A stretch of DNA of 23,358 nt from a virus. The number at the start of each line of letters is the position of its first letter. Position 1 is the first letter of the stretch. Below the pieces are notes generated by a model that was not told the DNA's origin, searched no databases, and saw only the letters and a list, made by a program, of their open reading frames with translations. Position numbers and translations under genes: made by a program. Positions 46 to 20,958 of this stretch are shown piece by piece. Location of the stretch: positions 1-23,358 of IMG/VR virus record IMGVR_UViG_3300027608_002354; one strand, 5' to 3'.

Positions 46-134
46 TAAAGTTTTCCTCTAATCCATTCTGGACCAGGACATTCGGCTTTTCTTGTATTCT
101 TCAATCCGTTATTCCACCAAAAGGTATATTTCAA
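45..134 (-). CDS. Possible 29-codon ORF with WWNNG...CPGPEW motif, perhaps an endonuclease remnant
   Basis: In the 85-base gap between the gp13-like and gp14-like genes, one minus-strand frame reads FWWNNGLKNTRKAECPGPEW followed by IRGKL and a TAA. That TAA overlaps the gp14 ATG as TAATG, an arrangement used elsewhere in this cluster. The only start I find is TTG at 134-132, overlapping the gp13-like stop; the frame has stops further upstream. The aromatic WWNNG and CPGxEW pattern resembles a short motif I recall from phage homing-endonuclease-associated proteins and short marine-phage proteins, but I cannot search to confirm this. It may be a tiny leader gene, a remnant of an inserted endonuclease gene, or non-coding. 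Confidence 0.35.
   Translation of the reverse strand: MKYTFWWNNGLKNTRKAECPGPEWIRGKL
54..59 (-). promoter_or_regulatory. Ribosome-binding site of the gp14-like gene
   Basis: The minus strand reads AGAGGA nine bases upstream of the ATG at 45. It fixes the start of the truncated gp14-like gene and lies inside the 29-codon reading frame. Confidence 0.7.
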
Positions 135-871
135 CCTACTAGATCCATAACAGGAAGTGAGTAACTGCTAATCATCTTATCTTCTAAGTCTGTAATTTCA
201 GCAACAGCATCATTATAGATCTTCTCGCCATTAAACGTTAATCCGCCGGGAAGTTGCATACCAGTAAATTTAGTTAGATTAGAACCCCATTGGCGTTTAA
301 TCAAAGCGGTTGCATATCTCAACAGCCATTGATCTTTCCAGACGTCAACATATTCCGTTGGATCTATGATTTGATAAGCTTCAACAAGTAGATATTCATT
401 TGAAAGCGAGTTCCAATCCATGTCGATGTACAGACGATTCATATGGCGATTAAAACGTAGAAGTTGCTTACCGACCAACATCTCAGAAATCAATGAAAGA
501 TGTTCCATGACCATGTAATAAGGAACCATCGATACAGATGTAAGTGTATAGAGATCGTTTAGCGCAATCTGATAGCGAATATTGAATAGGTCATCTGAGC
601 GAATAGATGGATCGGCAATATTAAAAAGATTCACTGCACCGATTATATTATCTGGAACAGTAATATATTTGTTGGTTATATCTGTATTGGTGACTAAATG
701 CTTATAATAGATTTTCTCAGTACCATCAAAGTGATAGTCCCAATAATATCGTAAAGCATCATCGACGCGATCTTCTACTTGATCATCGTCAACATTGATT
801 TCAATAACTGGAGCACCTAGCCTTCTAAGACAATATGCTTTAAATTGATCTCGTGTAGTTGGAACAGCCAT
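131..871 (-). CDS. T4-like neck protein, gp13-like
   Basis: This 246-residue protein matches what I recall of the neck protein gp13 of marine T4-like phages: an N-terminal CLRRLGAPVIEINVDDDQ at residues 14-31, DALRYYWDYHFDG at 38-50, ALNDLYTLTS at 103-112, a central LIKRQWGSNLTKFTG at 190-204, and a C-terminus ending SYSLPVMDLVG. In T4, gp13 acts with gp14 at the head-tail junction. The reading frame opens at a TTG (883), but ATG at 871 is the better start: GGAG at 878-881 is well placed and the TTG is part of that TTGGAG. A T4-type late promoter lies about 30 bases upstream. Identification is strong as a neck component; the exact T4 numbering (13 versus 14) rests on memory and gene order. 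Confidence 0.85.
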   Translation of the reverse strand: MAVPTTRDQFKAYCLRRLGAPVIEINVDDDQVEDRVDDALRYYWDYHFDGTEKIYYKHLVTNTDITNKYITVPDNIIGAVNLFNIADPSIRSDDLFNIRYQIALNDLYTLTSVSMVPYYMVMEHLSLISEMLVGKQLLRFNRHMNRLYIDMDWNSLSNEYLLVEAYQIIDPTEYVDVWKDQWLLRYATALIKRQWGSNLTKFTGMQLPGGLTFNGEKIYNDAVAEITDLEDKMISSYSLPVMDLVG

Positions 872-877
872 GTAAAT

Positions 878-881
878 CTCC
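878..881 (-). promoter_or_regulatory. Ribosome-binding site deciding the gp13-like start
   Basis: GGAG sits six bases upstream of the ATG at 871. The nearby in-frame TTG at 883 overlaps this site and is therefore unlikely to be the true start. Confidence 0.7.
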
Positions 882-899
882 AAAAAAGACTTTATTGAG

Positions 900-907: not shown

Positions 908-966
908 ATGATCATACTTTTATCTATATAGAATAGCCACTTTTCAACGTATTTTATTTCATTCTT

Positions 967-981
967 GCATATAGTATATGC
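967..981 (-). other. Imperfect inverted repeat after the last glycan-island gene
   Basis: The 124-base gap 872-995 contains GCATATA-G-TATATGC (plus strand), an almost perfect palindrome flanked by CTT and, after a two-base GC bulge, AAG. It sits 15 bases past the stop codon of the gene at 996-2186 and before the late promoter. There is no U-tract on the minus-strand RNA, so it is not a typical intrinsic terminator. It could be an mRNA-stabilising hairpin or a protein-binding site. Confidence 0.3.
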
Positions 982-995
982 GCAAGTTGTACCAA

Positions 996-2186
996 TTATC
1001 TATCCTCCAAAAGCTTTATTGCAAGCTCTCTAGCTTGCTCAACAATATTATCCCACCTGCCACATTCTGTTTGTCTAATACACCAGGCATTTTCGTACCA
1101 ATCACTCTTACCAACCTGATCAACAGAGCACCATGTAAAATAATCCGACATATTGTTTAAAGCAATTACTTTTTTCCCAAGAGCCCCTGCTGCATGCGAA
1201 AGACTGGTACAAGCAGTAACAATTAGATCACATGAATCAATAATAGCAAGCGTGTCTTCCCATGTTTCAATTTTTGGGTAGGTTATATTTTCATTTGCCT
1301 CTATAACGTCCTTTTGAATATTAACTAGTTCACCTAGATCTTTTAAACTATCAACAAGCATTTTTAAAGGAATAATTCTCATATGAATTTCAGGATGGGT
1401 AATATCACCAGTATTATTAATACCAATTCGAATTTTATTTCCTACTTTCTTAAGTGATTTATTAGATGTGAGGTATGTGAGTGGTTCAGGGTCATTGCTT
1501 TTTAAAAGATAAGGAAGACTCATACAAGGTACTAGATAGTCACATTGTTGTCCATTATACTTCTCAATATTAAATACTCTACATATAACATCATCAATAA
1601 AAATTTTATGAGGATGATAAACAACTTTACCGCAATGTTTTTTAAGTTCTGGTATCCATCTTGCAAAAATTATTTCATCCCCGCATCCGCTTTCACCGCA
1701 AACTAGTAAGGTTTTATTAGTATCAATCCCGTCCCAAACAGGAAGGCCGGGTGGAGTATTATTCCACCAGTAGACACCATTTCTTGCTTTTTCTGTAACT
1801 TCAAAAGCTTCTCTAAATTTACCTGTCTTATGTAAATACCACCCATGAAAAAGATATTTCTCACTCCTTTCCGGTAAATCAGATATCATTCTCAAAAAAT
1901 CATTATATCTTCCTAGTAATCGCATAAATTGAATTTTATCTCTTGTATGCTCCCAGCCAATTTCATATTTAAGTTCTTCAAGCTTTAATAAAAATTGATA
2001 TGCCTTCTCAATATCAGTACTTAAAAAATAACACATTTTAGCATTATCAATCAGTTCTTTTATTATTCCTGGCTGATCTTTTGGGGCTAATTCAATACAG
2101 CAAGAAAGCAAATCTCCCGCTTCTCTATATTTTTTATTCGTGTAAAGAAAGTGACTTACATTATTAATTTGTTCACCAATATTCAT
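996..2186 (-). CDS. TPR-like plus heptosyltransferase-like (GT9-type) protein
   Basis: A 396-residue protein. Residues 1-135 are helical and TPR-like (for example YLFHGWYLHKTGKFREAFEV at 111-130). Residues 158-390 resemble the ADP-heptose:LPS heptosyltransferase fold (GT9): GESGCGDEIIFARW at 164-177 matches the glycine-rich 'G-GD-I' loop, and CDLIVTACTSLSHAAGALGK at 319-338 matches the family's C-terminal segment. It is clearly paralogous to the N-terminal two thirds of the gene at 3484-5202, including a W-E-D-T motif shortly before the CTS segment. It ends the four-gene glycan island, seven bases after the methyltransferase gene. It probably transfers a sugar to an unknown acceptor such as a phage fibre, host lipopolysaccharide or another glycan. 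The TPR-GT9 architecture supports a protein acceptor but does not prove it. Confidence 0.7.
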   Translation of the reverse strand: MNIGEQINNVSHFLYTNKKYREAGDLLSCCIELAPKDQPGIIKELIDNAKMCYFLSTDIEKAYQFLLKLEELKYEIGWEHTRDKIQFMRLLGRYNDFLRMISDLPERSEKYLFHGWYLHKTGKFREAFEVTEKARNGVYWWNNTPPGLPVWDGIDTNKTLLVCGESGCGDEIIFARWIPELKKHCGKVVYHPHKIFIDDVICRVFNIEKYNGQQCDYLVPCMSLPYLLKSNDPEPLTYLTSNKSLKKVGNKIRIGINNTGDITHPEIHMRIIPLKMLVDSLKDLGELVNIQKDVIEANENITYPKIETWEDTLAIIDSCDLIVTACTSLSHAAGALGKKVIALNNMSDYFTWCSVDQVGKSDWYENAWCIRQTECGRWDNIVEQARELAIKLLEDR

Positions 2187-2193
2187 AATAAAC

Positions 2194-2793
2194 CTATAAT
2201 TTTATAAAGGCGGTTTGGCTCATATCCGGTATATGAACAATATTCAACTTATGCCAATTGCATTGTATAAAGGCATCAACAGCCATCTTTGGAGACATTT
2301 GTGCTGAAGTGGTTCCATTTTGATCAGTGTATTTCCAGACAGAAGCATCATCACATAAAATCACACCACCCTTAACAAGTATTTTCCAGGACAAAACAAG
2401 ATCAGTTAATACTTCGCTTGCTCTATGGTCTCCATCAATATAGATAAGCTCCGCCTTGACCTCATTATTGATTAAATCCATCAAAGCAAATTCACTATGC
2501 TTTCTCATATACTCAACATTTTTATTTTTACATTCTTGTATATTGTGTATAAAATTTTTATGCACCAAATTTAAATCATCTGGAAGGTCTATACTACTGG
2601 CATGAGGATCAATAGCATAAATTTTTAAATTTTTATTATACTTGGTTAGCTCATCACTAACCCAAAACGTTGTTGACCCTTCAAAAACACCTACTTCAAC
2701 AATAGTGTTAGGTACTCCATACGTGTTAATAAGATGGCTAATGTTTACACAGGCCCCTCTACCACAATTAAAATCCATCGTAAATTTATACAT
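2194..2793 (-). CDS. Class I SAM-dependent methyltransferase (Methyltransf_24-like)
   Basis: A 199-residue protein with a class I methyltransferase pattern: motif I VEVGVFEGSTTFW at residues 32-44, an acidic strand end AIDPHAS at 60-66, LIYIDGDHRASEVLTDL at 116-132 and KGGVILCDDASVW at 141-153. The 'YIDGDH' and 'GG-I-DD' motifs are typical of the Methyltransf_24 family and of related enzymes near polysaccharide gene clusters. Its ATG overlaps the TAA of the preceding GT25-like gene (TAATG at 2791-2795), so the two are probably translationally coupled. It likely methylates a sugar or a glycan intermediate made by the neighbouring glycosyltransferases; the substrate is unknown. Confidence 0.7.
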   Translation of the reverse strand: MYKFTMDFNCGRGACVNISHLINTYGVPNTIVEVGVFEGSTTFWVSDELTKYNKNLKIYAIDPHASSIDLPDDLNLVHKNFIHNIQECKNKNVEYMRKHSEFALMDLINNEVKAELIYIDGDHRASEVLTDLVLSWKILVKGGVILCDDASVWKYTDQNGTTSAQMSPKMAVDAFIQCNWHKLNIVHIPDMSQTAFIKL

Positions 2794-3530
2794 TACACTT
2801 CCAAATTACTATTTAATTTTGTTGAACGGCCTGTATCCGGTCTTTTGTTAATAGTGTTTTCTAATTCTGAATCATCAAAAGCATATAATCCTTGATGAGT
2901 AATATTGAATAAATCAGCTCTCATCATAATATCTAACGGAGCACAAATTCCAAATTTGATAACGTGAGCAATAAGATTTTTTGCTACCATAGGATCAATT
3001 GAATATGCATGAGCTCTACAAATAAAAAGATAATTTGGACCTTCGGATGCATGGGGAGGAATTGGATAAATTTTCCAATCTTTTTTTGCCCACTCACGAC
3101 CTCCGAGATATACGATTGAGTTTAAATGTCCATGATGTTCAAATTTTCTCACCATAATAGCATCATGTTCAAGTACAACAATTGGGGAGTCTATCAGTAC
3201 ACATTTTACCCACAAACTTATATGACTCAGTGCGCATGCAAGTTCCGTTCTTGTCAAATAATGGTCAGTGACTTTTAACATTTTCATTATATCACTATTC
3301 TTTGAATGACCGGGTATATCTATAGTACCTTGTGTGCCATCAAAAGCATCCCAAACAGTAAAGGGCATTTCTACCTTTCTGCACGATTCTTGGCATCTTC
3401 TAGAATAGTTTTCTGAAACAGAATTATTTTTCAGTGTAATAATATAAGATTGTTCAACATTAATATTATGTGAGTAAAATAAACTATTTCTTGTTGAGGA
3501 TTGACTCAACTGCTCGTCTAAATTCATCAT
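2793..3530 (-). CDS. Glycosyltransferase family 25-like protein (LPS-type)
   Basis: A 245-residue protein with GT25 hallmarks: the N-terminal strand SYIITLKNN at residues 28-36, RTELACALSHISLW at 94-107, VVLEHDAIM at 118-126 (the family's E-D/D-x-D-type metal-binding site), and the late segment HAYSIDP at 174-180. GT25 enzymes transfer galactose or glucose in lipopolysaccharide or protein glycosylation. The reading frame opens with TTG at 3536, but GGGAAG at 3539-3544 favours the ATG at 3530 (a second ATG follows at once). This makes the gene overlap the end of the upstream GT9/methyltransferase gene by 47 bases, longer than the other overlaps here. The 'EHD' arrangement, in place of the more usual 'EDD', is a small deviation. 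Confidence 0.7.
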   Translation of the reverse strand: MMNLDEQLSQSSTRNSLFYSHNINVEQSYIITLKNNSVSENYSRRCQESCRKVEMPFTVWDAFDGTQGTIDIPGHSKNSDIMKMLKVTDHYLTRTELACALSHISLWVKCVLIDSPIVVLEHDAIMVRKFEHHGHLNSIVYLGGREWAKKDWKIYPIPPHASEGPNYLFICRAHAYSIDPMVAKNLIAHVIKFGICAPLDIMMRADLFNITHQGLYAFDDSELENTINKRPDTGRSTKLNSNLEV

Positions 3531-5202
3531 TATCAATTCTTCCCGGTTTATGAACCTGTATTAAGATTCTTGTAGCAGAAGCAACATTATTAAGATGGTT
3601 AAGTGTGTAGACTAATTCTTCTTCACTAATTTCACCTTTCTTTATTTTTTCCTTAAATGGGTGAGTATATTCAAACTGCAAATCACAAATTTCTATATCA
3701 ACATCATTTTCAAAAGATAGAAATGAATCAGGCTCACCACTCTGAATCTTTTCAATTTGAATTTTCTTATTGAACAAATTAAACATTCTAGGTGTAATTT
3801 GTTTTTTATGAGTAGGATCATCTACCGAAACATCACATCTCCAATGCGGTACTTGAATTTCCCATATTGCACCGTTATAACTTACTCTATACATCTCTTT
3901 AATTAGTTTAACAAAGTCACAATCAAGATGTTCAAGCACATCTTTAGCAATTATATGATCAAATTCATTATCAGACCAAGGAAATGGCAGCACGCTCAGA
4001 TCAACTCGTTGATCAGGTTTAACATAATCAGCTTTATCAACATTAAGAAACCCATTAAACTTCTTTAATCCACAACCAATATTGAGTCTTTTTATAATTC
4101 TGTCCTCATTTGGTTGATTAATATATTTGAGATTAAACTTTTTTTCAAGATGTGTATATAAAGATTGAAAAGTATCATTCCAATTTGATGGATCTTGTTG
4201 TCTAAAAATTTTTACACAATCATAATACGGTGTTGTTGTGCTATCGGGTGATTTGTATGTCCAAGTATGATAAGGAAGAATCGGAACAATAACCCATGTT
4301 TCTTTACCCATGGCGGCTGCAAGATGGGCAATACTTGTGCATGAGGAAATAATAATGTCCATATTTGCAATTGCTGCCACTGTATCTTCCCATGACAGTA
4401 GAAAATGCTGCAAGTCTATTATACTTTCTGGAAGAGCAATAGTGTTATGATCTCTCTGTAAGCTATAAATTTGCAGCTCATCATACTTGCTCAAATTAGT
4501 AATAAACTTTTCAGGAAAACGTCTAAACTGTTGATGCTCAAACTTTGGATTACCTGCCCAACGAATACCCACTTTAACTTTATCACTTTTAATAAGCGAT
4601 TTCCAAATTTCAACAGATTCTGTTTTTGGTGTTATATACGGCTTTGATAAGAAATTTTGAAAAGTATGCCCAGCAACCCATCCAGATGAAAATCCAGGAA
4701 TCCAATAATCGTGGTTAACAGTATGAGCTTGATTTCTAAGAATTACACCATCAACGCCTTCTATTCTTGAAAATAGCGACATCAGTTCTGGTGCAGCTGC
4801 AATATATACATAGCTTGCACCTTGGTTCTTAAAACTAGTTGCAAATCTTGCATGAATAATTTCATCACCAAAACCACCTTCTAGTGAGAGAATGATGGAT
4901 TTGCCTTTTATAGAATGAATGTCCGGATTAAAAATAGGTGCATTTGTTCTTAGTGGTGGGGAACCATAAACATTTAAAAACCTACCGTGCTCAAGTAGCT
5001 TCGCACCGGCCTGATAATCACCCTCTTGAATAAGAAACCACCCACGATTAAAACTATGACGAAACCAAATATCCTCTGTATTTGTACCTTTTGCATCTAG
5101 AATTTTTGTTGGGCCTTGTAATTCTAACTTATCTGAAATTGCTCTTGCTTCTTCATGTTTCCCATCAAGTTGTAATTTTAACATCAAATCAATATCATGC
5201 AT
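3484..5202 (-). CDS. Fusion: TPR-like, GT9-type glycosyltransferase and C-terminal methyltransferase
   Basis: A 572-residue three-part protein. Residues 1-95 are helical, with FNRGWFLIQEGDYQAGAKLL at 51-70 resembling a TPR repeat. Residues 102-350 are heptosyltransferase-like (GT9): SLEGGFGDEIIHARF at 106-120 and MDIIISSCTSIAHLAAAMGK at 281-300. Residues 372-550 form a class I methyltransferase: LNIGCG at 373-378, LPFPWSDNEFDHI at 405-417 and KDVLEHLDCDFVKLIKEMYR at 420-439. Its N-terminal two parts are paralogous to the gene at 996-2186, so a duplication followed by gain or loss of the methyltransferase is likely. The frame opens at TTG 5214, but GGAG at 5209-5212 points to ATG 5202. It is the first gene of the glycan island, directly after the fibre chaperone. 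The acceptor and sugar cannot be read from the sequence. Confidence 0.75.
   Translation of the reverse strand: MHDIDLMLKLQLDGKHEEARAISDKLELQGPTKILDAKGTNTEDIWFRHSFNRGWFLIQEGDYQAGAKLLEHGRFLNVYGSPPLRTNAPIFNPDIHSIKGKSIILSLEGGFGDEIIHARFATSFKNQGASYVYIAAAPELMSLFSRIEGVDGVILRNQAHTVNHDYWIPGFSSGWVAGHTFQNFLSKPYITPKTESVEIWKSLIKSDKVKVGIRWAGNPKFEHQQFRRFPEKFITNLSKYDELQIYSLQRDHNTIALPESIIDLQHFLLSWEDTVAAIANMDIIISSCTSIAHLAAAMGKETWVIVPILPYHTWTYKSPDSTTTPYYDCVKIFRQQDPSNWNDTFQSLYTHLEKKFNLKYINQPNEDRIIKRLNIGCGLKKFNGFLNVDKADYVKPDQRVDLSVLPFPWSDNEFDHIIAKDVLEHLDCDFVKLIKEMYRVSYNGAIWEIQVPHWRCDVSVDDPTHKKQITPRMFNLFNKKIQIEKIQSGEPDSFLSFENDVDIEICDLQFEYTHPFKEKIKKGEISEEELVYTLNHLNNVASATRILIQVHKPGRIDNDEFRRAVESILNKK
3539..3544 (-). 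promoter_or_regulatory. Ribosome-binding site of the GT25-like gene
   Basis: GGGAAG lies eight bases upstream of the ATG at 3530, within the coding region of the upstream gene. It supports the overlapping start. Confidence 0.5.
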
Positions 5203-5208
5203 ATTATT

Positions 5209-5212
5209 CTCC
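5209..5212 (-). promoter_or_regulatory. Ribosome-binding site deciding the start at 5202
   Basis: GGAG is followed by AATAAT and then ATG on the minus strand. The upstream TTG at 5214 overlaps the site, as at the gp13-like gene. Confidence 0.6.
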
Positions 5213-5219
5213 AAAATTT

Positions 5220-5720
5220 TTAACTAATAAAATATGGCCACTCAATATTAAACGGATCATTTTGTTTTGTTATATCTGCAAGTGCCTGCATATAAGTATC
5301 TAGGCTCTCTAAAGTATCAGTGGATGGTACACCTAATCTTTTTTCTCTTTCATATCTCGAATAATGCCAATCAAAATCATTCATCATTTGATTGCGCTGT
5401 ATTCTTATTTCTTCCCATTTTATCATTTTTAAGTATTCAGGGTCTGGTTCCGGTGGGGGTGCGGCCGGCGGTGGTAATTCTACTATCTTAAAAGATTCAT
5501 ACACTTGGCCATTTTCAATATAATGGTATGGGATGTCTATTCTATGCGTATTTGAATTATAATCAGGCGGTGTCTTTATTAATTTAAACCAGCCAAGTAA
5601 ATTAAGATAGTTCCAATCATTTTCAAGAGCACGAAAATTACTAATGTTTCTCCAATTCTCAGGGAGAAAATCGTATACACTTTGAACTTCATTATTTTCT
5701 ATAAAAGCGTAATTAGCCAT
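5220..5720 (-). CDS. Tail-fibre assembly chaperone-like protein
   Basis: A 166-residue protein. The N-terminal part, with VYDFLPENWRNISNF at residues 15-29 and LLGWFKL at 41-47, resembles short marine myovirus proteins beginning with a 'YD-LP-WRNIS...LGW' pattern. A proline-rich linker, ELPPPAAPPPEPDPEY, lies at 81-96. The C-terminal part, RIQRNQMMNDFDWHYSRYE at 106-124 and DTYMQALADIT at 141-151 ending in NIEWP, follows the 'RN-LL--sDW ... Y--aLrdi' pattern of phage tail-fibre assembly chaperones (Phage_TAC / DUF4376-like). Chaperones of this kind help a fibre fold or trimerise and are usually encoded just after their client. The client here would be the RCC1-repeat protein, whose gene ends 20 bases upstream. 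No cysteines or membrane segments are visible. Confidence 0.7.
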   Translation of the reverse strand: MANYAFIENNEVQSVYDFLPENWRNISNFRALENDWNYLNLLGWFKLIKTPPDYNSNTHRIDIPYHYIENGQVYESFKIVELPPPAAPPPEPDPEYLKMIKWEEIRIQRNQMMNDFDWHYSRYEREKRLGVPSTDTLESLDTYMQALADITKQNDPFNIEWPYFIS

Positions 5721-5740: not shown

Positions 5741-8700
5741 TTATATTGTAATTGCAGCATTATGTGATATTCCTGAGCTTACTAATTGAGCTGAGAGTCC
5801 AACAGCACTGTTAATATCATGTATAAACTGATCAGTGAATACCATTGTATAACTAACATTATTACCCCATGTGTATAGAGCGTTTGAAGAATCAATAGCA
5901 GTGCTAAAATTTAATCCAGCGGATATTTGTTTCCATGATGAGGTGCCAATCTGCGTTATATTACTATTTATTCTATTTCTTAATGAACCATAATTAACAG
6001 CCACAGGTGACGATCTGGTAAAGGTATCGTTTAATCCTAATTGACCGGAGCCATTATTTCCCCATATAAATAAGGCGCTATCAGTACGTGTAGCTGTCAT
6101 GTGTGAGCCGCCTGCAGCCACCTGTGACCAAGAACTAGTACCTACCTGTACTGGTGAAGATCTGCTAACTAAATCTCCTTGGCCTAATATACCGGTGGAA
6201 TTATCTCCCCATGTAAATAACGCACCATCAGACCGTATAGCTGCTGTCTGCCCACTACCTGCTGCTACCTGAGACCAAGAACTAGTCCCTATTTGTACAG
6301 GAGAAGATTTGCTAATGAGTGTATTATCACCTAATCGACCATTACTACCTAATCCCCAGGTAAATAGTGCACCATCCGAACGAATGGCTGCTGTGTGTGT
6401 ACCACCTGCTGCTACCTGTGACCAAGAGCTAGTACCTATTTGTACTGGTGAAGATCTGCTTGTAGAGGTGCCATCACCTAATTGACCACTACCACCTGAT
6501 CCCCATGTAAATAAGGCACCATCAGTTCGTATAGCGGCTGTATGCCCACCATCTGCAGATACCTGTGACCAAGAACTAGTACCTACCTGTACTGGTGATG
6601 ATCTAAGAACTAAATCTCCCTGGCCTAATTGACCGGAGCCATTATTTCCCCATGTAAATAAGGCGCTATCAGTACGAATGGCTGCTGAGTGACTATCACC
6701 CACATCTACCTGTGACCAAGAACTAGTACCTACCTGTACTGGTGATGATCTATGAACTAAATCTCCTTGACCTAATTGACCAGATCCATTAATGCCCCAT
6801 GTAAATAGTGCACCATCAGAACGAATGGCTACTGTGTAGCTACCTAATATTCCTGCAGCTACCTGTGACCAAGAACTAGTACCTACCTGTACTGGTGAAG
6901 ATCTGCTAACTAAATCTCCTTGGCCTAATTGACCACTACTATTCAACCCCCATGTAAATAGTGCGCCATCAGAACGAATGGCTGCTGTGTGCGACCTGCC
7001 TATTGATACTCGTGTCCAGCTTGTGTATGATGTTAATGTTAGACTGTCACCGGCAAAATTCCCCCACCCAAATAGCAAATTGTCATTTTTTATTGCAAGA
7101 CTGTGTGAATATCCTGCTGATATCTGTGACCATGAACTGGTGCTTATTTGAACTGGTGAAGATCTGCTAATGAGTGTACCATCACCTACTTGTCCTGTAG
7201 CATTTTGTCCCCAAGCATATAATGTTTTATCAAAGCGGGTTGCAATATTATGAACATCCCCTGCAGCCACCTGTGACCAAGAACTAGTACCTACCTGTAC
7301 AGGTGATGATCTATGAACTAAATCTCCCTGACCTAATTGTCCTTGATTATTTCTACCCCATGTAAATAATAAATTGTCACTACGAATAGCTAGAACATGG
7401 CTACTACCAGCTGATACTTGTGTCCAAGATGACGAACCAATCTGAACTGGTGAGTTAGAATATGAATTAAAAATTAATACAGGGGAAGATCTACTTGTAG
7501 TTGTATTATCACCTATTTGCCCCTCGCCATTTGATCCCCATGCATATAGTGCACCATCAACTCTTATAGCAATATCTACTCCACTTACACCACCTGCTGC
7601 TACCTGTGACCAAGAGCTAGTACCTATTTGTACTGGCGAAGATTTGTTTGTAGAGGTGCCATCACCCGCTCGACCGGAGCCATTATTTCCCCATGTAAAT
7701 AATGCACCATCAGTACGAATGGCTAGTGCGTGGTAGCCACTTATGGCCACCTGTGACCAAGAACTAGTACCTACCTGTACTGGTGATGATCTGTCAACTT
7801 GATCTCCTTGACCTAATTGACCTAGAACGTTGAACCCCCATATGAATAATGCACTATCAGTTCGTATGGCTGCTGTGTTAAGTTGACCGGCTGCTACCTG
7901 TGACCAAGAACTGGTGCCTATTTGTACCGGGGATGATCTGTTTGCAATTGTACTGTCACCTAATTGACCGTAGATATTATACCCCCATGTAAATAAAGCA
8001 CCATCAAAACGAATAGCAGCTGTATGGTCAAGGCCGCCTGCAACCTGTGACCAAGAACTAGTCCCTATTTGTATTGGTGATGAGTAACTAGTAGTTGTAC
8101 CAGCACCTAATTGACCATTATTATTCGACCCCCATGTAAATAAGGCACCATCAGTACGAATGGCTGCTGTCTGACCACTACCTGCTGCAACCTGTGACCA
8201 AGAACTAGTCCCTATTTGTACTGGTGATGAGTAACTAGTAGTTGTACCGTCACCTAATCGACCATTATTACCTAATCCCCAGGTAAATAGTGCACCATCC
8301 GAACGAATGGCTGCTGTGTAACTGGTCCCCGCGGCTACTTGTGACCAGGAACTAGCACCTATTTGTATTGGAACAGAGCTGCTTAGTACTAAACTGTTCC
8401 CTAATTGACCACTATCTCCGTTCCCCCATATAAATAGTGCACCGTCAGTTCGTATAGCGGCTGTATGATTGGTACTCTCTGATATTTTTGACCATGATAA
8501 CACAGCGCCTGATATAGTTGTACCTAATTGCCCAATAGTATTCCAGCCCCAAGCGTATAGCAACCCATCGGTTTTTATTCCAAATGATGCTCTTGAAGTT
8601 GCTGACACTTTTGACCAAGAACTGGTACCAACCTGTACAGGTGAAGATTTACTAACAACTGTATTATCACCTAACTGCCCAACAGCATTTTCACCCCATG

Positions 8701-8920
8701 CAAATAATGCACCATCATTGCGAATAGCAAGTGTATGATTAACACCAGCTGATATTTGAGACCAAGAACTAGTACCTACCTGTACCGGTGATGAACGCGA
8801 AATAATTGTATTGTCGCCTAATGCACCGTAGCCATTATATCCCCAAGTATATAACCGAGCGAAATTGGCGCTAGCAGCAGCACCAGCACTTTTTAATAAT
8901 AGCCATTTTTCAAGTAACAT
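5741..8920 (-). CDS. Giant RCC1-repeat (beta-propeller) virion adhesin
   Basis: A 1059-residue protein built from about 21 RCC1-like repeats of roughly 49 residues. The typical unit is LFTWGxNxxGQLG, then SSPVQVGTSSWSQVAAG, then HTAAIRxDGA. Repeats start near residue 23 after an N-terminus with little recognisable character (MLLEKWLLLKSAGAAASANF). Units 3 and 13 are shortened, units 10 and 20 carry insertions, and the last unit is degenerate. RCC1 repeats form seven-bladed propellers, so 21 units would make three. In phages such proteins are usually fibre tips or adhesins binding surface ligands; the eukaryotic nucleotide-exchange role is not implied. The ATG overlaps the stop of the preceding fibre gene (TAATG), and a fibre chaperone gene follows. 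Repeats are also very similar at the DNA level, suggesting recent expansion or gene conversion. Confidence 0.85.
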   Translation of the reverse strand: MLLEKWLLLKSAGAAASANFARLYTWGYNGYGALGDNTIISRSSPVQVGTSSWSQISAGVNHTLAIRNDGALFAWGENAVGQLGDNTVVSKSSPVQVGTSSWSKVSATSRASFGIKTDGLLYAWGWNTIGQLGTTISGAVLSWSKISESTNHTAAIRTDGALFIWGNGDSGQLGNSLVLSSSVPIQIGASSWSQVAAGTSYTAAIRSDGALFTWGLGNNGRLGDGTTTSYSSPVQIGTSSWSQVAAGSGQTAAIRTDGALFTWGSNNNGQLGAGTTTSYSSPIQIGTSSWSQVAGGLDHTAAIRFDGALFTWGYNIYGQLGDSTIANRSSPVQIGTSSWSQVAAGQLNTAAIRTDSALFIWGFNVLGQLGQGDQVDRSSPVQVGTSSWSQVAISGYHALAIRTDGALFTWGNNGSGRAGDGTSTNKSSPVQIGTSSWSQVAAGGVSGVDIAIRVDGALYAWGSNGEGQIGDNTTTSRSSPVLIFNSYSNSPVQIGSSSWTQVSAGSSHVLAIRSDNLLFTWGRNNQGQLGQGDLVHRSSPVQVGTSSWSQVAAGDVHNIATRFDKTLYAWGQNATGQVGDGTLISRSSPVQISTSSWSQISAGYSHSLAIKNDNLLFGWGNFAGDSLTLTSYTSWTRVSIGRSHTAAIRSDGALFTWGLNSSGQLGQGDLVSRSSPVQVGTSSWSQVAAGILGSYTVAIRSDGALFTWGINGSGQLGQGDLVHRSSPVQVGTSSWSQVDVGDSHSAAIRTDSALFTWGNNGSGQLGQGDLVLRSSPVQVGTSSWSQVSADGGHTAAIRTDGALFTWGSGGSGQLGDGTSTSRSSPVQIGTSSWSQVAAGGTHTAAIRSDGALFTWGLGSNGRLGDNTLISKSSPVQIGTSSWSQVAAGSGQTAAIRSDGALFTWGDNSTGILGQGDLVSRSSPVQVGTSSWSQVAAGGSHMTATRTDSALFIWGNNGSGQLGLNDTFTRSSPVAVNYGSLRNRINSNITQIGTSSWKQISAGLNFSTAIDSSNALYTWGNNVSYTMVFTDQFIHDINSAVGLSAQLVSSGISHNAAITI
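5870..8855 (-). repeat. Coding RCC1 repeat array (about 21 units of about 147 bases)
   Basis: The same DNA words recur throughout, for example ctgtgaccaagaactagtac and acctgtactggtgaagatct (plus strand). Spacing is mostly near 147 bases, with shorter and longer exceptions. The conserved DNA codes for the SSPVQVGTSSWSQVAAG segment, while the loops between differ. Boundaries are approximate. Confidence 0.85.
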
Positions 8921-10647
8921 TATAGGTTCTGCCCTGAAACAAATGCATACCAGTTAGTTCCTCCATCATAGGTAACCGTTGTAATAAAATCTTTCTTATT
9001 TAATGTAGATGTGAGCGTGGGTGCTGTACCTCCTGGCCATTTAAAAGATGCTGGCCAGGTTACAGATCTTGCAGTACCATCTCCAATCAAGCTGAGAACA
9101 AATGACGATGTGTTACCTGAGTTCTGAATATTGTTTATTGTTAGCGTTGTTATATTACTATTAAGAGTTACTTCGAATACAGTAGCTTGATTTAAATCAA
9201 GTGTTAAAGTGTTGGTAGAAATAGAAGAAGAAGCTTTCCCTTGTGAAGTGCTGTTAGCATATAGAGTGCTGCTTTTAATGCTATTAACAACACTGATAGC
9301 AACCGCATTCACTAATGTTGAATTAGCAGTAAAAGCAGTACCGACATTAGCACTAGTGGTTACGTAAAGAGTGGCTGTATTTGTTTGATTGACAACATTG
9401 AGAGCGACAGCATTAACCAACGAACTATTAGCTGTAAAAGCAGTACCGACATTAGCGCTAGTGGTTGCAAAAAGAGTTGCAGTATTAGTTTGATTAACAA
9501 CATTAAGCGCTATAGCATTAACCAACGAACTATTAGCTGTAAGCGCTGTACCAATGTTGGCACTAGTGGTTACAAACAATGTTCCAGTATTAGTTCGATT
9601 AACAACATTAAGCGCTATAGCATTAACCAACGAACTATTAGCTGTAAGCGCTGTACCAATGTTGGCACTAGTGGTTACAAACAATGTTCCAGTATTAGTT
9701 TGGTTTACCACATTGAGTGCTTGCAAATTGGCAAGAGCACTATTGACGGTCATTGATCCAATTGCAAGAGCTACCGGTGTTAGGTTTGCTGTACTGGTTG
9801 AGTTGGATGCCTGTAATAAATTAAATGAATGTGTTGCGTTGACGGTACTATTACCAACAACAATGGACGTGTTAGTAATGTTAACACCGTTAGTGGTGCC
9901 AAAGGAGCCAACATTAAGATTAGAAGTAGCATTTACAGTTGGTGTAACTATAAATGTTGGGTTAATATTTGATGTACCAGTCGAGTTTGCTGTTCTAATT
10001 AAGTTGTATGAGAGTGTTGCATTAGCTGTTGAGTTTCCAACAACAGTCGCGGTATTTGTTATGCTAACACCATTGGTTGTTCCAAATGAGCCAACATTGA
10101 CTGTGTTCACAGCATTTAATGCTATCGCATTCACTAATGTTGAATTAGCAGTAAACGCTGTTCCAACGTTAGCTGATGTGGTTACAAAAAGAGTTGTTGT
10201 ATTAGTTTGGTTTACAACATTGAATGCTATAGCATTAACCAACGAACTATTAGCAGTAAAAGATGTACCGACATTAGCTGATGTTGTTACATATAATGTA
10301 GCAGTGTTGGTTTGATTAACAACATTGAGTGCTGCAGCATTTATTAATGCAGCATTAACAGTTGTTGTACCAATTGTAAGAGTTGTTGGGGTAAGATTTG
10401 CTATACTGCTTGTATTAGCTACTGATACAAGGTTATTTCTATAAATTGCATTGGCAGTTGTGTTGCCGAGAATAATTGCAGATGTGTTTACAACAACACC
10501 GTTTGTGGTTGCAACTGTACCTCCAACAATTATTACAGACGAATTAACAATAGAATTAGCAACTGTATTTCCAGCAGTTAAACTATTAACACTATAATCA
10601 AGCGTATTTGCAACACTAGAAGGTTTTATTCTTGTAAATTCAGTCAT
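8920..10647 (-). CDS. Repeat-built tail-fibre protein
   Basis: A 575-residue protein rich in Asn, Thr, Ser, Ala and Val and low in charged residues, typical of beta-structured phage fibre shafts. Its body consists of 35-residue modules (ALNVVNQTNTATLFVTTSAN, then VGTAFTANSSLVNAI) alternating with TTNGVxIxNTxxxxGNSTxN modules. The last 115 or so residues form a separate domain with VFEVTLNSNITTLTINN, SVTWPASFKWPGGTAPTLTS and YDGGTNWYAFVSGQNL, a C-terminal domain I recognise from other phage fibres. The start ATG follows a GAG at 14 bases from the previous stop. The same modules occur in the fibre proteins at 13960-15351 and 20974-23358. It is likely a trimeric fibre or fibre segment connected with the RCC1 protein encoded next. 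Confidence 0.8.
   Translation of the reverse strand: MTEFTRIKPSSVANTLDYSVNSLTAGNTVANSIVNSSVIIVGGTVATTNGVVVNTSAIILGNTTANAIYRNNLVSVANTSSIANLTPTTLTIGTTTVNAALINAAALNVVNQTNTATLYVTTSANVGTSFTANSSLVNAIAFNVVNQTNTTTLFVTTSANVGTAFTANSTLVNAIALNAVNTVNVGSFGTTNGVSITNTATVVGNSTANATLSYNLIRTANSTGTSNINPTFIVTPTVNATSNLNVGSFGTTNGVNITNTSIVVGNSTVNATHSFNLLQASNSTSTANLTPVALAIGSMTVNSALANLQALNVVNQTNTGTLFVTTSANIGTALTANSSLVNAIALNVVNRTNTGTLFVTTSANIGTALTANSSLVNAIALNVVNQTNTATLFATTSANVGTAFTANSSLVNAVALNVVNQTNTATLYVTTSANVGTAFTANSTLVNAVAISVVNSIKSSTLYANSTSQGKASSSISTNTLTLDLNQATVFEVTLNSNITTLTINNIQNSGNTSSFVLSLIGDGTARSVTWPASFKWPGGTAPTLTSTLNKKDFITTVTYDGGTNWYAFVSGQNL
9492..9700 (-). repeat. Perfect 104-base tandem duplication inside the fibre gene
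   Basis: Reading by eye, 9492-9595 and 9597-9700 are identical over 104 bases at a period of 105 bases (35 codons). Related but diverged copies of the same 35-residue module flank both sides. The identity points to a very recent duplication or gene conversion. Confidence 0.8.
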
Positions 10648-16008: not shown

Positions 16009-16890
16009 TTATGGATCTAAATTAAAAATAAGCCTGTGCAATAATCTATCTGTATTTTGGTATGCATCTCTAGAGTGCTGAGTGCATATTGAATCAAAGA
16101 ATACTAAATCGCCATCATCCCAATAGTGCTTATAAACATTTTCTTCTTTGAATAATAAACACTTTAACCATTTAGTTATCTCAAGACTTTCTTTGAACGT
16201 CTTATCTTTAAATGTTATAGCGGTATTGTAGTCATATCCAAATCCTACAAGACCAGTTAATGAAGTTCTTATTAGCGATCTTTCTAAAACTTCACTTGAA
16301 TAGTTATCAGTGTAGTTTAATAAAATCTCTTTATAAAGAAGACTAGGATATGATGGAGCAATCTTTTTATTCAATGCCCTCTCAATACCTTGAACTAATA
16401 CGTCAGACCGATATTCATAAACTAAAGAATTAACAAAATCTCTATCAGCCAATGATAACTTGTAATATTCAGAAACAGTTTCTAAAAATGAAGTGCTCGT
16501 ATTAACTGTGTTTTTACCATGCAAACAAATAGTATTATACACTTTTCTATATGCAGGACCATCTCTATGCCAATTTAAGTATTCATTAGTAGGAACAATT
16601 CCTTCCGAAACACCTTTTTCATTCTTTTTGGATTGAACTTTTAATACACCCGGATATTCTGGATATGTCGCAGACTTAAAGAATTCGATATACTCTTTCT
16701 TTCCTTGTTGTCCATAATAGAACTCGATGATTGGGTATTTGGGTTCTCCATAATATGCTAAGTCAAGATCTTTAAAGAAATACCAAATATCAGAAAGCTC
16801 TAGATATTTATTTTTTATAAAAACAACCAAGTTATTTTTAAATGCATCTCTAACTTCTTCAAGAGATTTCACTTCTTTTACAAATTCCAT
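16009..16890 (-). CDS. TauD-like 2-oxoglutarate/Fe(II)-dependent dioxygenase
   Basis: A 293-residue enzyme with the TauD/TfdA layout: the metal-binding HRD at residues 108-110 in NWHRDGPAYRKVYNTICLHG, and, after the usual long insertion, the second His 272 in WDDGDLVFFDSICTQHSRDA with Arg 282 or 286 in DRLLHRL for 2-oxoglutarate. These positions are as expected for the family, so the enzyme is probably active. It would hydroxylate a small molecule or a side chain using 2-oxoglutarate and oxygen; the substrate cannot be told. GAGAG precedes the ATG, and the desaturase gene ends only seven bases upstream, which suggests co-translation. Related oxygenases occur in many marine phages. No signal peptide is visible, so it should act in the cytoplasm. 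Confidence 0.8.
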   Translation of the reverse strand: MEFVKEVKSLEEVRDAFKNNLVVFIKNKYLELSDIWYFFKDLDLAYYGEPKYPIIEFYYGQQGKKEYIEFFKSATYPEYPGVLKVQSKKNEKGVSEGIVPTNEYLNWHRDGPAYRKVYNTICLHGKNTVNTSTSFLETVSEYYKLSLADRDFVNSLVYEYRSDVLVQGIERALNKKIAPSYPSLLYKEILLNYTDNYSSEVLERSLIRTSLTGLVGFGYDYNTAITFKDKTFKESLEITKWLKCLLFKEENVYKHYWDDGDLVFFDSICTQHSRDAYQNTDRLLHRLIFNLDP

Positions 16891-16897
16891 AATACTC

Positions 16898-17665
16898 TCA
16901 ATTGAATAATTTTTTACTCACTACACCCAATATATCTATTTCATACCATTTCTTACTATGAACTGCATCACCAGGAAATTGGTGATGGTTATTCTGATAA
17001 CCTTCTCCGAATACTAAAAGCCCAATCAAAGTATTGTTTCTGCTCAAGTCTTTTGTATCATATGATGTATATCCATAAAGATGTCCTAGTATACCAATGC
17101 CTAGACTCGTTGCAATCCAAGACCAAACAGCGGGAGCAACATAACCATATATAAAATACTGAGGACCAAGCAGTAAAAGAGTAATAGAATATACTGCAAT
17201 GATATGCCAATAATACTTATGGAATGCTATAGCAAGATGATCTTTGAGTAATCTACCACCGTAATGAACGCTGATATTGGTTTCATATTTTAAAGCAGTC
17301 CAATATAATTTAAATGGATTACAGAAATGTGGACTGTGAGGATCTTCTTGCGTGTCACTCTTTTTATGGTGTTTTCGATGTTTCATTACCCATTCTATAA
17401 TAGTACCCTGAGAAGCTAATGTGCCGAATGTTAATCCAATGCATTTCATCCATTCAGGAAAATACCTATAAGATAGGTGTGAGTAATACCGGTGAAAGGT
17501 TACTGAGATGCCTATGCCTCCAAATAAGACATAGAACCATAATCCCCAAAGATTATATTCGATAGGATATATGAAAAAAGAAGCAAAGAAGATTAGATGC
17601 AGAATTACCTGATATGATAACTTTGCATATGGTTTGGCTCTATTTAAAAACGGCAAGAAGAACAT
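16898..17665 (-). CDS. Membrane fatty-acid desaturase (delta-9 type)
   Basis: A 255-residue di-iron desaturase with three His boxes: HRYYSH at residues 58-63, HRKHH at 96-100 (in EWVMKHRKHHKKSD), and GEGYQNNHHQFPG near 220-232. Hydrophobic segments near 16-35, 39-57, 155-174 and 176-198 fit a membrane enzyme of the acyl-lipid or acyl-CoA delta-9 family, and the C-terminal WYEIDILG also fits. The third box starts with Gln where the classic 'HNNHH' has His. The frame opens at TTG 17671, but AGAAGG at 17674-17679 supports ATG 17665, giving a 26-base overlap with the upstream gene. It needs host electron donors and would act in the host inner membrane, probably changing lipid unsaturation during infection. 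Its location inside a structural cluster is notable. Confidence 0.85.
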   Translation of the reverse strand: MFFLPFLNRAKPYAKLSYQVILHLIFFASFFIYPIEYNLWGLWFYVLFGGIGISVTFHRYYSHLSYRYFPEWMKCIGLTFGTLASQGTIIEWVMKHRKHHKKSDTQEDPHSPHFCNPFKLYWTALKYETNISVHYGGRLLKDHLAIAFHKYYWHIIAVYSITLLLLGPQYFIYGYVAPAVWSWIATSLGIGILGHLYGYTSYDTKDLSRNNTLIGLLVFGEGYQNNHHQFPGDAVHSKKWYEIDILGVVSKKLFN

Positions 17666-18242
17666 TATCAATACCTTCTATGTGTAAATCCTTAGCTGTA
17701 GTAACATATGTCACTTGTTTATGAAGGCGTCTATGGCCATTAATAACAATTTCACCCTCTAATGGAATTAGATAAGATTCATCTTGAATGAATTTGTATA
17801 AATTATCGCCAGTATTTACCGCAATAACATCATTTAAAGTCATAACTTTATCTTCTGTTATTTTCCCATCTTGATTTATACAAATAATAGAAGAGTCATT
17901 CTCTAATGGATATGCATGCCTAGGAATATTGTCATCAACAATTGTTTCTCTTACAGTTTGATTATCGGAGCATGAAATTATATGAGTTCTGTTTGGAGAA
18001 TATGCGTTATTGTGAGTAGTAAAATCACCGCGATAATATGTCGGATCAACAGATAATATTGTATCTTTGTCTGGATGATTGTCTATATCATAAAATCCAT
18101 ATTTCCAAGAACCACTTGATACTATTTGCCCAATTGTAAATTTAGCAATACGTGCAAAATCTTTTGGAACTTTAATTGGTTTAGAATTAAATTCTGTAAG
18201 ATTATGTATCGTTTGTTTTACAAAAAATGGCGTTTGTTTCAT
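17640..18242 (-). CDS. Hypothetical protein, 200 residues
   Basis: A 200-residue soluble protein starting MKQTPFFVKQTIHNLTEFNS and ending DNVLLAVFK. Segments include SSGSWKYGFYDIDNHPDKD near 42-60, an internal run of short beta strands (DSSIICINQDGKI, VIAVNTGDNLYKFIQDESYL), and EIVINGHRRLHKQVTYVTTA in the last third. I recognise no family. It has no signal peptide, membrane segment or metal-binding cluster that I can see. Its start lies one base after the stop of the gene at 18244-18723, and its end overlaps the desaturase start by 26 bases, so it is part of this operon. A virion or baseplate-associated role is as likely as an accessory enzymatic one. Confidence 0.6.
   Translation of the reverse strand: MKQTPFFVKQTIHNLTEFNSKPIKVPKDFARIAKFTIGQIVSSGSWKYGFYDIDNHPDKDTILSVDPTYYRGDFTTHNNAYSPNRTHIISCSDNQTVRETIVDDNIPRHAYPLENDSSIICINQDGKITEDKVMTLNDVIAVNTGDNLYKFIQDESYLIPLEGEIVINGHRRLHKQVTYVTTAKDLHIEGIDNVLLAVFK
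17674..17679 (-). promoter_or_regulatory. Ribosome-binding site of the desaturase gene
   Basis: AGAAGG lies eight bases upstream of the ATG at 17665, within the end of the preceding gene. It decides for the ATG over the TTG at 17671. Confidence 0.6.
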
Positions 18243-19812: not shown

Positions 19813-20958
19813 TTACCTAAAATATGGACCAATCATCCAACATACTGTTGCATGCCGAGTACCTGATATTACATCTTCTACGCCATGTAGTAAAAATGAT
19901 GGAAACACTATAACTGTTCCTTTAGTTTGTAATGGATAAAGCTTTTCATCTGATACTTGTAGAAAAAATTTACCACCTTCAAAATCATCATTAAGAAATG
20001 CAAGAGCTGTAAGCTTTCTACATTCTTTTGTTGGTGTTGTTATAAACGTATCCAAATGAGATTTATATCTACCTGTTTCATTATATTTTAAATATTCTAT
20101 TTGTTGGCACTGTGTTAAATCAAATTTCCATGCTTGTTGATTTGCAACAAACGCGTTTGAAATTAATTGAGTTCCTATCCCTTCATGAATAGGAAGAAGC
20201 ATTCTCTTAACATTTCTTATTTGCTTATTTATAACTCCATTTATATGTCCCCCAATTTCAGCATCTTCTAATTCAGAAGAACCATATTTTAAAATAATTG
20301 AATCGCAATATTCTTTCGAAATAACATTTGGAAATTGCCAAAAATAAATTACAGAATCTTCTTGTTTCGCATGAACAACCCTTTGTGTTTCACTAGAAAC
20401 ATTTAAACTTGATCTACCATCATATTTTTGATTTGCATGTGGACCATTTGCATCAACATAATGAAAGAACACTTGGCACTGCCATTCGCCCTCAAAAGAA
20501 TTTCTCCAATGATATATTTCTGTGCCTTTATATAGAGCAACATCACCTGGTTTAAGAATAACCGCATTTCCATTTTCAGTTGAATTTTCTTTATTAAAAG
20601 AAATAGGCCATTCTTTTCCACTAAGACCAAGTGTAACAGTTGCACTTATTTCGCATGCAGGTCTATCTCTATGAATAGTTAAAATTTCACCAGGTCTATA
20701 AACTCTAGCATAACTATATGTAGGAATAAGTGGGGTACCTGCAATTTCAGAAAATTGCTCTGTTAAAGCTTCTAATAAACTATCAAAATACTCATCACCG
20801 TATATGGCATCCGATAAAGGGCACTGTTCATCTTTACTGGTTTTTTTTTCATCTGCTAGCAAAAATAATCTTGATACTGCTTCATCACACATTTGTTTTG
20901 GTAGCAAATCTCTTAGCAGCACATAATAATTTTCATTAAAATCATCAGTAATAGTCAT
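19813..20958 (-). CDS. Double-domain 2-oxoglutarate/Fe(II) oxygenase (prolyl-hydroxylase-like)
   Basis: A 381-residue protein with two complete 2-oxoglutarate/Fe(II) oxygenase domains. Domain 1 (about 10-170): YARVYRPGEILTIHRDRP with H96 and D98, GDVALYKGTEIYHWRN with distal H150. Domain 2 (about 200-381): YLKYNETGRYKSHLDTF with H301 and D303, ALAFLNDDFEGGKFFL, and VFPSFLLHGVEDVISGTRHA with H358 and R368. Domain 2 is a clear prolyl-4-hydroxylase-type fold; domain 1 is more divergent but retains its H-x-D...H triad. The enzyme would hydroxylate a protein side chain or small molecule in the cytoplasm. GGAG before the ATG fixes the start. It lies between the giant fibre and the gp38-like adhesin, so virion proteins are candidate substrates, but this is inference. 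Confidence 0.85.
   Translation of the reverse strand: MTITDDFNENYYVLLRDLLPKQMCDEAVSRLFLLADEKKTSKDEQCPLSDAIYGDEYFDSLLEALTEQFSEIAGTPLIPTYSYARVYRPGEILTIHRDRPACEISATVTLGLSGKEWPISFNKENSTENGNAVILKPGDVALYKGTEIYHWRNSFEGEWQCQVFFHYVDANGPHANQKYDGRSSLNVSSETQRVVHAKQEDSVIYFWQFPNVISKEYCDSIILKYGSSELEDAEIGGHINGVINKQIRNVKRMLLPIHEGIGTQLISNAFVANQQAWKFDLTQCQQIEYLKYNETGRYKSHLDTFITTPTKECRKLTALAFLNDDFEGGKFFLQVSDEKLYPLQTKGTVIVFPSFLLHGVEDVISGTRHATVCWMIGPYFR

Follow-up and report, generated by a model that had tools for sequence, protein, structure and literature searches.

The record IMGVR_UViG_3300027608_002354 of the virus collection IMG/VR, the whole 23,358 bases of which we call the window, carries a run of four enzyme genes downstream of the gene for an RCC1-repeat protein, and these enzymes and their linkage to RCC1 are the subject of this analysis. 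All genes of the window lie on the minus strand; they encode long repetitive fibres, the RCC1-repeat protein, a tail-fibre chaperone, the four enzymes and a T4-type neck protein. RCC1 (5741-8920) is a predicted beta-propeller protein with 20 PF13540 matches (phrog_7220, E 1.8e-127). It is followed by the tail-fibre assembly chaperone (5220-5720; PF16778 at 30.4 bits with a cut-off of 26.6, phrog_4912) and, after 5 nucleotides, by the island: a fusion of a GT9-fold glycosyltransferase with a class I methyltransferase (3484-5214), a GT25 glycosyltransferase (2793-3536), a Methyltransf_24-type S-adenosylmethionine (SAM) methyltransferase (2194-2793) and a second GT9-fold glycosyltransferase with four N-terminal tetratricopeptide repeat (TPR)-like hairpins (996-2186). 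Open reading frames (ORFs), Pfam matches and predicted folds bear out this set of four as named in the preliminary description of the sequence, and its character as a small glycan-type enzyme set is supported by domain families and folds. The genes are tightly packed: 7 nucleotides separate the two last ORFs, the Methyltransf_24 and GT25 ORFs share a single nucleotide, and GT25 and the fusion overlap by at most 53 nucleotides, or by fewer if GT25 starts at its third residue, which is conserved in 46 of 49 sequences. The ATG at 5202, residue 5 of ORF 3484-5214, is nearly invariant among 47 relatives and, judged from this alignment, is likely to be the true start of the fusion gene; it coincides with the end coordinate given in the preliminary description. 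The island is no artefact of assembly, since it recurs at 99.8-100% identity in three further contigs from different samples. In relatives that show a chaperone gene, this gene usually lies upstream of RCC1; the window, with the chaperone between RCC1 and the GT9 enzyme, represents a minority arrangement.

The central observation is that the GT9-fold enzyme and RCC1 occur together. From 121 confirmed viral relatives of the fusion protein, 80 were kept and mapped (51-100% identity). An upstream gene is present at 74 of these loci, and at 65 the immediately preceding gene on the same strand is RCC1. With loci added later, the collection grew to 118 loci including near-identical contigs, which form 70 GT9-domain clusters at 90% identity; RCC1 is positioned directly upstream in 61 of these, two genes upstream in 5 and at neither place in 4. 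One cluster (L046/L048) was counted as RCC1 only by a laxer search (64 bits, 22% identity), and without it the number is 60 of 70. At these two loci (L046:3-2783 and L048:2102-9829) a long repeat protein with 'IAVGN..TSIDGINW'-like repeats occupies the place of RCC1 before GT9; by its sequence it is perhaps a different propeller adhesin. The reverse count started from RCC1. A scan with back-translated peptides returned just 7 loci and was replaced by an RCC1-repeat DNA motif built from the RCC1 gene of the window, which retrieved 63 distinct records, a sample leaning to the clade of the window. GT9 is present in 56 of the 63, namely in 25 that were already in the GT9 list (these overlaps and the 63 records being counted by hand) and in 31 of the remaining 38, as detected with an enzyme profile. 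All seven GT9-less records were inspected: in five the contig ends inside RCC1, and in the other two it breaks off in a sulfotransferase ORF that follows RCC1 directly; one of these ORFs is identical, over 177 residues, to the beginning of a sulfotransferase-GT9 fusion found elsewhere. Among the seven there is no intact sequence that contradicts the pairing. For a control selected by neither gene, we searched 24 of 78 additional neck records, namely those of at least 20 kb; the same 2 carry RCC1 and GT9, and the other 22 carry neither (Fisher p 0.0036). The pairing of RCC1 with GT9 is near-obligate and positional, a linkage far stronger than the preliminary description had stated. The neck genes, named there as the other flank, are neighbours only, in view of the 22 of 24 neck records that lack both genes.

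The fusion protein was modelled with AlphaFold2 (predicted local distance difference test, pLDDT, 90.9) and is predicted to comprise a helical N-terminus (about residues 1-97) of some two hairpins, a GT-B domain (98-362) and a methyltransferase domain (373-557). In fold searches the GT-B domain matched the Veillonella GT9 protein 3tov (Z 17.9, root mean square deviation (rmsd) 2.8, 245 residues aligned), WaaF 1psw (Z 17.2, rmsd 3.1, 241 aligned), TibC 4rap (Z 16.4) and WaaC 2h1f (Z 16.0); OGT/GT41 enzymes were not among the matches listed for either GT9-fold model. Searching solved structures by the sequence of the fusion protein gave no usable relative; the relatives came from the fold search. 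Residues 373-557 match SAM methyltransferases with Z up to 13.1, and Methyltransf_11 (PF08241) passes at 24.5 bits (cut-off 21.2). Both GT9-fold proteins miss the PF01075 (GT9) cut-off of 22 bits, with 16.9 and 12.0 bits, and it is for these scores that we write 'GT9-fold' and not GT9 member. As modelled, however, the fold in both proteins is of the heptosyltransferase GT-B type, so that the earlier GT9 assignment holds at the level of predicted structure and falls short at that of the family profile. Asp117 of the fusion is present in 87 of 87 aligned sequences and, lying in the N-terminal Gly-rich motif, appears to correspond to the catalytic base of GT9 enzymes, an equivalence drawn by motif, not by explicit superposition, from what we take to be the corresponding motif of WaaC. 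The only near-invariant cysteines in a 47-sequence alignment of the fusion are C292 and C381 (methyltransferase).

The second GT9-fold protein (996-2186) is a paralogue of the first, as had been proposed (BLASTP E 2e-19). Its AlphaFold2 model (pLDDT 89.7) places four helical hairpins before a glycosyltransferase domain that matches 3tov (Z 17.2), 1psw (Z 16.9) and TibC 4rb4 (Z 15.8); glycosyltransferase folds are upheld by both models, which match solved GT9 heptosyltransferases at Z 17-18, and by the Pfam score of GT25. Residues 1-138 resemble the TPR protein 4r7s at Z 11.6, a value that may mean no more than a common arrangement of helices, and TPR Pfam matches are limited to single relatives. 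The TPR region formerly ascribed to both proteins corresponds to four TPR-like hairpins in 996-2186 and to about two in the fusion. In an alignment of the short-form GT9 proteins, 4 of 12 members match PF01075 at E <= 0.01 (best 8.9e-5). The GT25 ORF passes PF01755 at 60.7 bits (cut-off 24) and carries E123-H124-D125 in 49 of 49 unique relatives, presumably the E-x-D motif of the family, whose role we assume; a sequence search of solved structures with GT25 found no usable relative. ORF 2194-2793 passes Methyltransf_24 (PF13578) at 62 bits (cut-off 26.3) and weakly matches the rhamnosyl O-methyltransferase family RMNT_CmcI (20.6 bits, under the cut-off). Hydropathy suggests no membrane segment in any of the four enzymes (best 19-residue value 1.38-1.59).

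Downstream of the pair, the remaining genes of the cassette vary between phages. Within eight genes of GT9, tallied over the 118 loci including near-duplicates, GT25 was found in 71, three GT2 groups in 39, 20 and 8, Methyltransf_24 in 32, sulfotransferase in 31, HldE-like proteins in 31, cupin in 27 and HldD-like proteins in 21. The GT9 domain is fused to a methyltransferase in 81 loci, fused to a sulfotransferase in either order in 5 and separate in 32, two of which are cut at a contig end; there are hence three fusion types, GT9-methyltransferase, GT9-sulfotransferase and sulfotransferase-GT9. Some sulfotransferase cassettes also hold FkbM methyltransferases and a P-loop kinase. The kinase resembles APS kinase, and our guess is that it could supply the sulfate donor, although its KTI12 match is slightly better. 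Exchange can be seen among near-identical phages. Two sibling contigs, L003 and L004, align with the window by blastn at 99.8% identity over 4374 bases and then contain about 730 bases that the window lacks. In both siblings a fifth enzyme gene, a GT2 glycosyltransferase next to the neck gene, is whole (269 residues; L003:5093-5902; its L003 copy scores 22.6 bits with PF13704, below the cut-off of 27.5). In the window (927-999) and in L002 it is reduced to a remnant by loss of about 730 bases, and in the window the start codon is changed. This change is recent, a gene loss within 99.8% identical phages. The core of the system is the pair of RCC1 and GT9, and the fixed four-gene island of the preliminary description gives way to a variable set.

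The genes surrounding some cassettes bear on the sugar donor. Of 34 long GT9 records, 16 encode an HldD-like protein (E < 1e-40), as do the two neck records that have RCC1, whereas none of the 22 RCC1-free neck records does (p 2e-5, or 1.5e-4 with near-identical records collapsed); the threshold was picked after viewing the list, and 2 of the 22 controls have weaker epimerase matches. Gene blocks encoding HldD-like, small HAD, cupin and HldE-like proteins adjoin the RCC1-GT9 cassette at L052:12372-15111, L057:12519-15087 and L063:7502-9991, and at L063 the HldE- and HldD-like genes immediately precede GT9. The window, itself a fragment, contains no HldD-like gene.

Beyond the cassette, the neck or head-tail adaptor protein (131-883, minus strand; phrog_211, E 9.8e-41) is a neighbour outside the module. 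A T4-late-type TATAAATA is located at 900-907 on the minus strand, just upstream of the neck gene, and judged by position may form the boundary between neck and glycan units; the count of TATAAATA in the window is at chance level (5, with 4.17 expected). Promoter-like sites in the window are fewer than the shuffle mean (32 and 39.5, respectively), and there is 1 terminator-like site, compared with 4.5 in shuffles. Amid the tail-fibre genes, at 16009-17671 and 19813-20958 on the minus strand, we also observed genes for a TauD-type dioxygenase, a DesA-type fatty acid desaturase and a 2OG-Fe(II) oxygenase.

Taken together, sequence, structural models and analogy incline us, with modest confidence, to regard the island as the downstream part of a dedicated cassette whose enzymes glycosylate the RCC1 adhesin of the virion. 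RCC1 itself is likely a distal tail adhesin. Its location in the virion is suggested by analogy: an RCC1-like protein was identified by mass spectrometry among the structural proteins of phage GAP32, according to PMC5259590, which makes RCC1 proteins possible virion parts. The phage would make the RCC1 propeller along with its virion proteins and the soluble enzymes from the next genes. The GT9-fold enzyme, whose helical N-terminus might grip the adhesin, would transfer a first sugar onto Ser or Thr residues of RCC1, with acceptor and linkage being our conjecture; this sugar would most likely be a heptose or a related sugar from an ADP-heptose-type donor. GT25, the second GT9-fold enzyme and, in relatives, GT2 enzymes would extend the glycan, and methyltransferases, in relatives also sulfotransferases, would cap it; sugar transfer and O-methylation, as well as sulfation in relatives, are the activities that the enzyme families predict. 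The finished glycan could tune binding by the virion tip or shield it, and swapping of the decorating genes would change the glycan between phages. More tentatively, we suggest that widespread aquatic phages might combine a propeller adhesin with their own protein O-heptosyltransferase-like enzyme, with swappable sugar, methyl and sulfate enzymes and often with their own donor synthesis, the tip glycan then forming a second, gene-swappable layer of recognition or disguise.

Several results weigh against glycosylation of RCC1. The LPS (lipopolysaccharide) heptosyltransferases WaaF and WaaC fit the fusion model as well as TibC does. Ser and Thr are no richer in RCC1 (median 23.8%) than in other fibres (23.6%). 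Half of the GT9/RCC1 records (18 of 36) are without an HldD-like gene, and the HldE- and HldD-like proteins mostly remain below the NCBIfam cut-offs: the HldE-like protein reaches 303.8 of 521 bits, the HldD-like proteins 195.3 and 271.5 of 274.6 (equivalog models), and the HldD cut-off is exceeded in 1 of 58 records. Owing to these scores, the donor may be a related sugar rather than heptose. In four GT9 clusters RCC1 is not found within two genes upstream: at L063 it lies on the opposite strand, at L292 three genes upstream and so one past the limit, at L264 some 8 kb away, with a fibre-like gene at the contig end before GT9, and at L077 a glycine-rich fibre-like protein (7929-9971) stands directly upstream of GT9 in its place. 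Outside the group, seven distant RCC1 phages were inspected, and in 6 of them no gene adjoining RCC1 is annotated with a glycan function. Finally, when GT9 was compared with the last 250 residues of RCC1 and with the neck protein in permutation tests, the similarities of GT9 and RCC1 were not correlated (Spearman -0.016, n 24; -0.141, n 56), with 1072 of 2000 permutations at or above the value for n 24; for the same 24 records GT9-neck gave 0.012 and RCC1-neck 0.037. This lends no support to a matching of sequence between enzyme and adhesin, whose pairing is one of position.

On a rival reading the enzymes would modify host surface glycans such as LPS core or capsule and hide the receptor of RCC1, thereby preventing superinfection or keeping progeny from being lost on debris; the linkage to RCC1 would then arise from adhesin and receptor being matched. 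The GT9 fold is that of WaaF and WaaC, the HldE- and HldD-like genes are those of the LPS inner-core donor, and Pfam describes GT25 as an LPS biosynthesis family. The preliminary description held this to be equally possible, and fold alone cannot decide the matter. Seroconversion loci of the gtr type, however, carry a membrane flippase and a membrane glucosyltransferase, and neither is present here; no membrane segment is suggested in the four enzymes, their genes are placed within a structural run directly behind an adhesin, and receptor matching alone leaves the near-obligate adjacency to one adhesin fold unexplained. Because the enzymes look soluble and the partner gene encodes an adhesin, we rate modification of the host surface lower and consider it unlikely. 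Less likely still is a glycan built on another fibre, for example the Asn/Thr-rich products of 8920-10647 or 20974-23358, with RCC1 merely a neighbour. Fibre genes do often precede RCC1 and are equally Ser/Thr-rich, and at L077 and L264 GT9 follows a different fibre-like gene; yet in 61 of 70 clusters it is RCC1 that immediately precedes GT9, and the 22 RCC1-free neck records are all without GT9. It strikes us as very improbable that phage DNA or a small molecule is the substrate and that the enzymes merely happen to be encoded near tail genes. Phage glycosyltransferases that modify DNA are known, as described in PMC12619734, but no recognised gene for modified-base synthesis was seen adjoining the cassette, and the linkage to an adhesin as well as the sulfotransferase and HldE/HldD-like neighbours suit a glycan. 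We retain glycosylation of the RCC1 adhesin as the favoured explanation. The findings named at the outset as contrary to a glycan island near fibre genes, namely glycosyltransferase folds without support and an island unlinked to fibre genes in relatives, were not obtained.

The pair also exists in cultured phages. RCC1 matches 30 annotated phage records, and GT9 is present in the four closest, which derive from three phages, BUCT-ZZ01, S-SRM01 and marine virus AG-345-E08; it is annotated as 'hypothetical protein' in BUCT-ZZ01 (L255:8281-9996) and as 'tetratricopeptide repeat protein' in S-SRM01 (L256:9431-10780). In BUCT-ZZ01 the RCC1-type protein is UTS52180.1 and the GT9-methyltransferase UTS52179.1; S-SRM01 carries RCC1 genes, the TPR-GT9 gene and, close by, a sulfotransferase gene. 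RCC1 repeats also occur in tail regions of distant Clostridioides, Pseudomonas, Brevibacillus and Bacillus phages, for which the search of annotated phage records gave no GT9 match. Among cellular genome contigs, the fusion profile detected two loci, both in metagenome bins and with phage-like neighbours; their RCC1-GT9 pairs (L257 and L258) were binned as Bacteroidetes and Bdellovibrionales. Receptor binding of phages is usually inferred from protein sequence alone. If our proposal is correct, host range and adsorption of common aquatic phages could not be predicted from the sequence of the adhesin, and adhesins produced in its absence, without the cassette, would not behave as the native ones do. 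The proposal would also assign a likely substrate to many phage glycosyltransferases, methyltransferases and sulfotransferases that are now functionally unassigned, and it can be tested in BUCT-ZZ01, which grows on Synechococcus elongatus PCC 7942, and in S-SRM01.

Among characterized systems, the closest in outline is the BAHT enzyme TibC; according to PMC4358343, it adds heptose to the adhesins TibA and AIDA-I, and adhesion depends on it. TibC and the fusion share the GT-B heptosyltransferase fold (Z 16.4), the partner is likewise a repetitive surface adhesin, and by motif the catalytic Asp of TibC would correspond to Asp117, with the same proposed role. BAHT enzymes are defined by an N-terminal beta-barrel and an iron finger with four conserved cysteines (PMC4358343). 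In contrast, the N-terminus is helical in both models here and forms no beta-barrel, and the four-cysteine iron finger is absent from the 47-sequence alignment of the fusion; we therefore do not file the cassette under BAHT. The enzyme is moreover fused to a methyltransferase or sulfotransferase, and its putative partner is a virion propeller instead of an autotransporter beta-helix. FlmG, as described in PMC7591256, is a soluble TPR-GT-B enzyme that glycosylates flagellin in the cytoplasm and binds flagellins through its TPR part. Helical hairpins that may be TPR-like precede the GT-B domain of 996-2186, and a soluble enzyme acting on an assembling extracellular filament would be a further likeness (PMC7591256). 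The fusion, however, has only about two hairpins, and whereas FlmG uses pseudaminic acid, fold and neighbours here point to heptose; because the TPR match is only moderate, the cassette is not assigned to the FlmG type either.

WaaC and WaaF have the same fold (Z 16-17.2) and HldE/HldD-like neighbours, but the enzymes described here are phage-encoded beside an adhesin gene and score below the Pfam GT9 cut-off. From gtr-type seroconversion loci the four enzymes differ in having no strongly hydrophobic segment, and RCC1 phages outside the group share RCC1 repeats in tail regions but not the GT9 match. Virion proteins of mycobacteriophages are reported to carry glycans, as cited in PMC12619734; there they are attached to the C-termini of capsid and tail-tube proteins, whereas here a receptor-binding propeller is the proposed acceptor. 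We found no published description of the RCC1-GT9 cassette in the open literature, a weak negative given that subscription papers were mostly outside the search. The arrangement of an adhesin with its own glycosyltransferase is known, and the proposed virion-adhesin cassette would be a new form of it.

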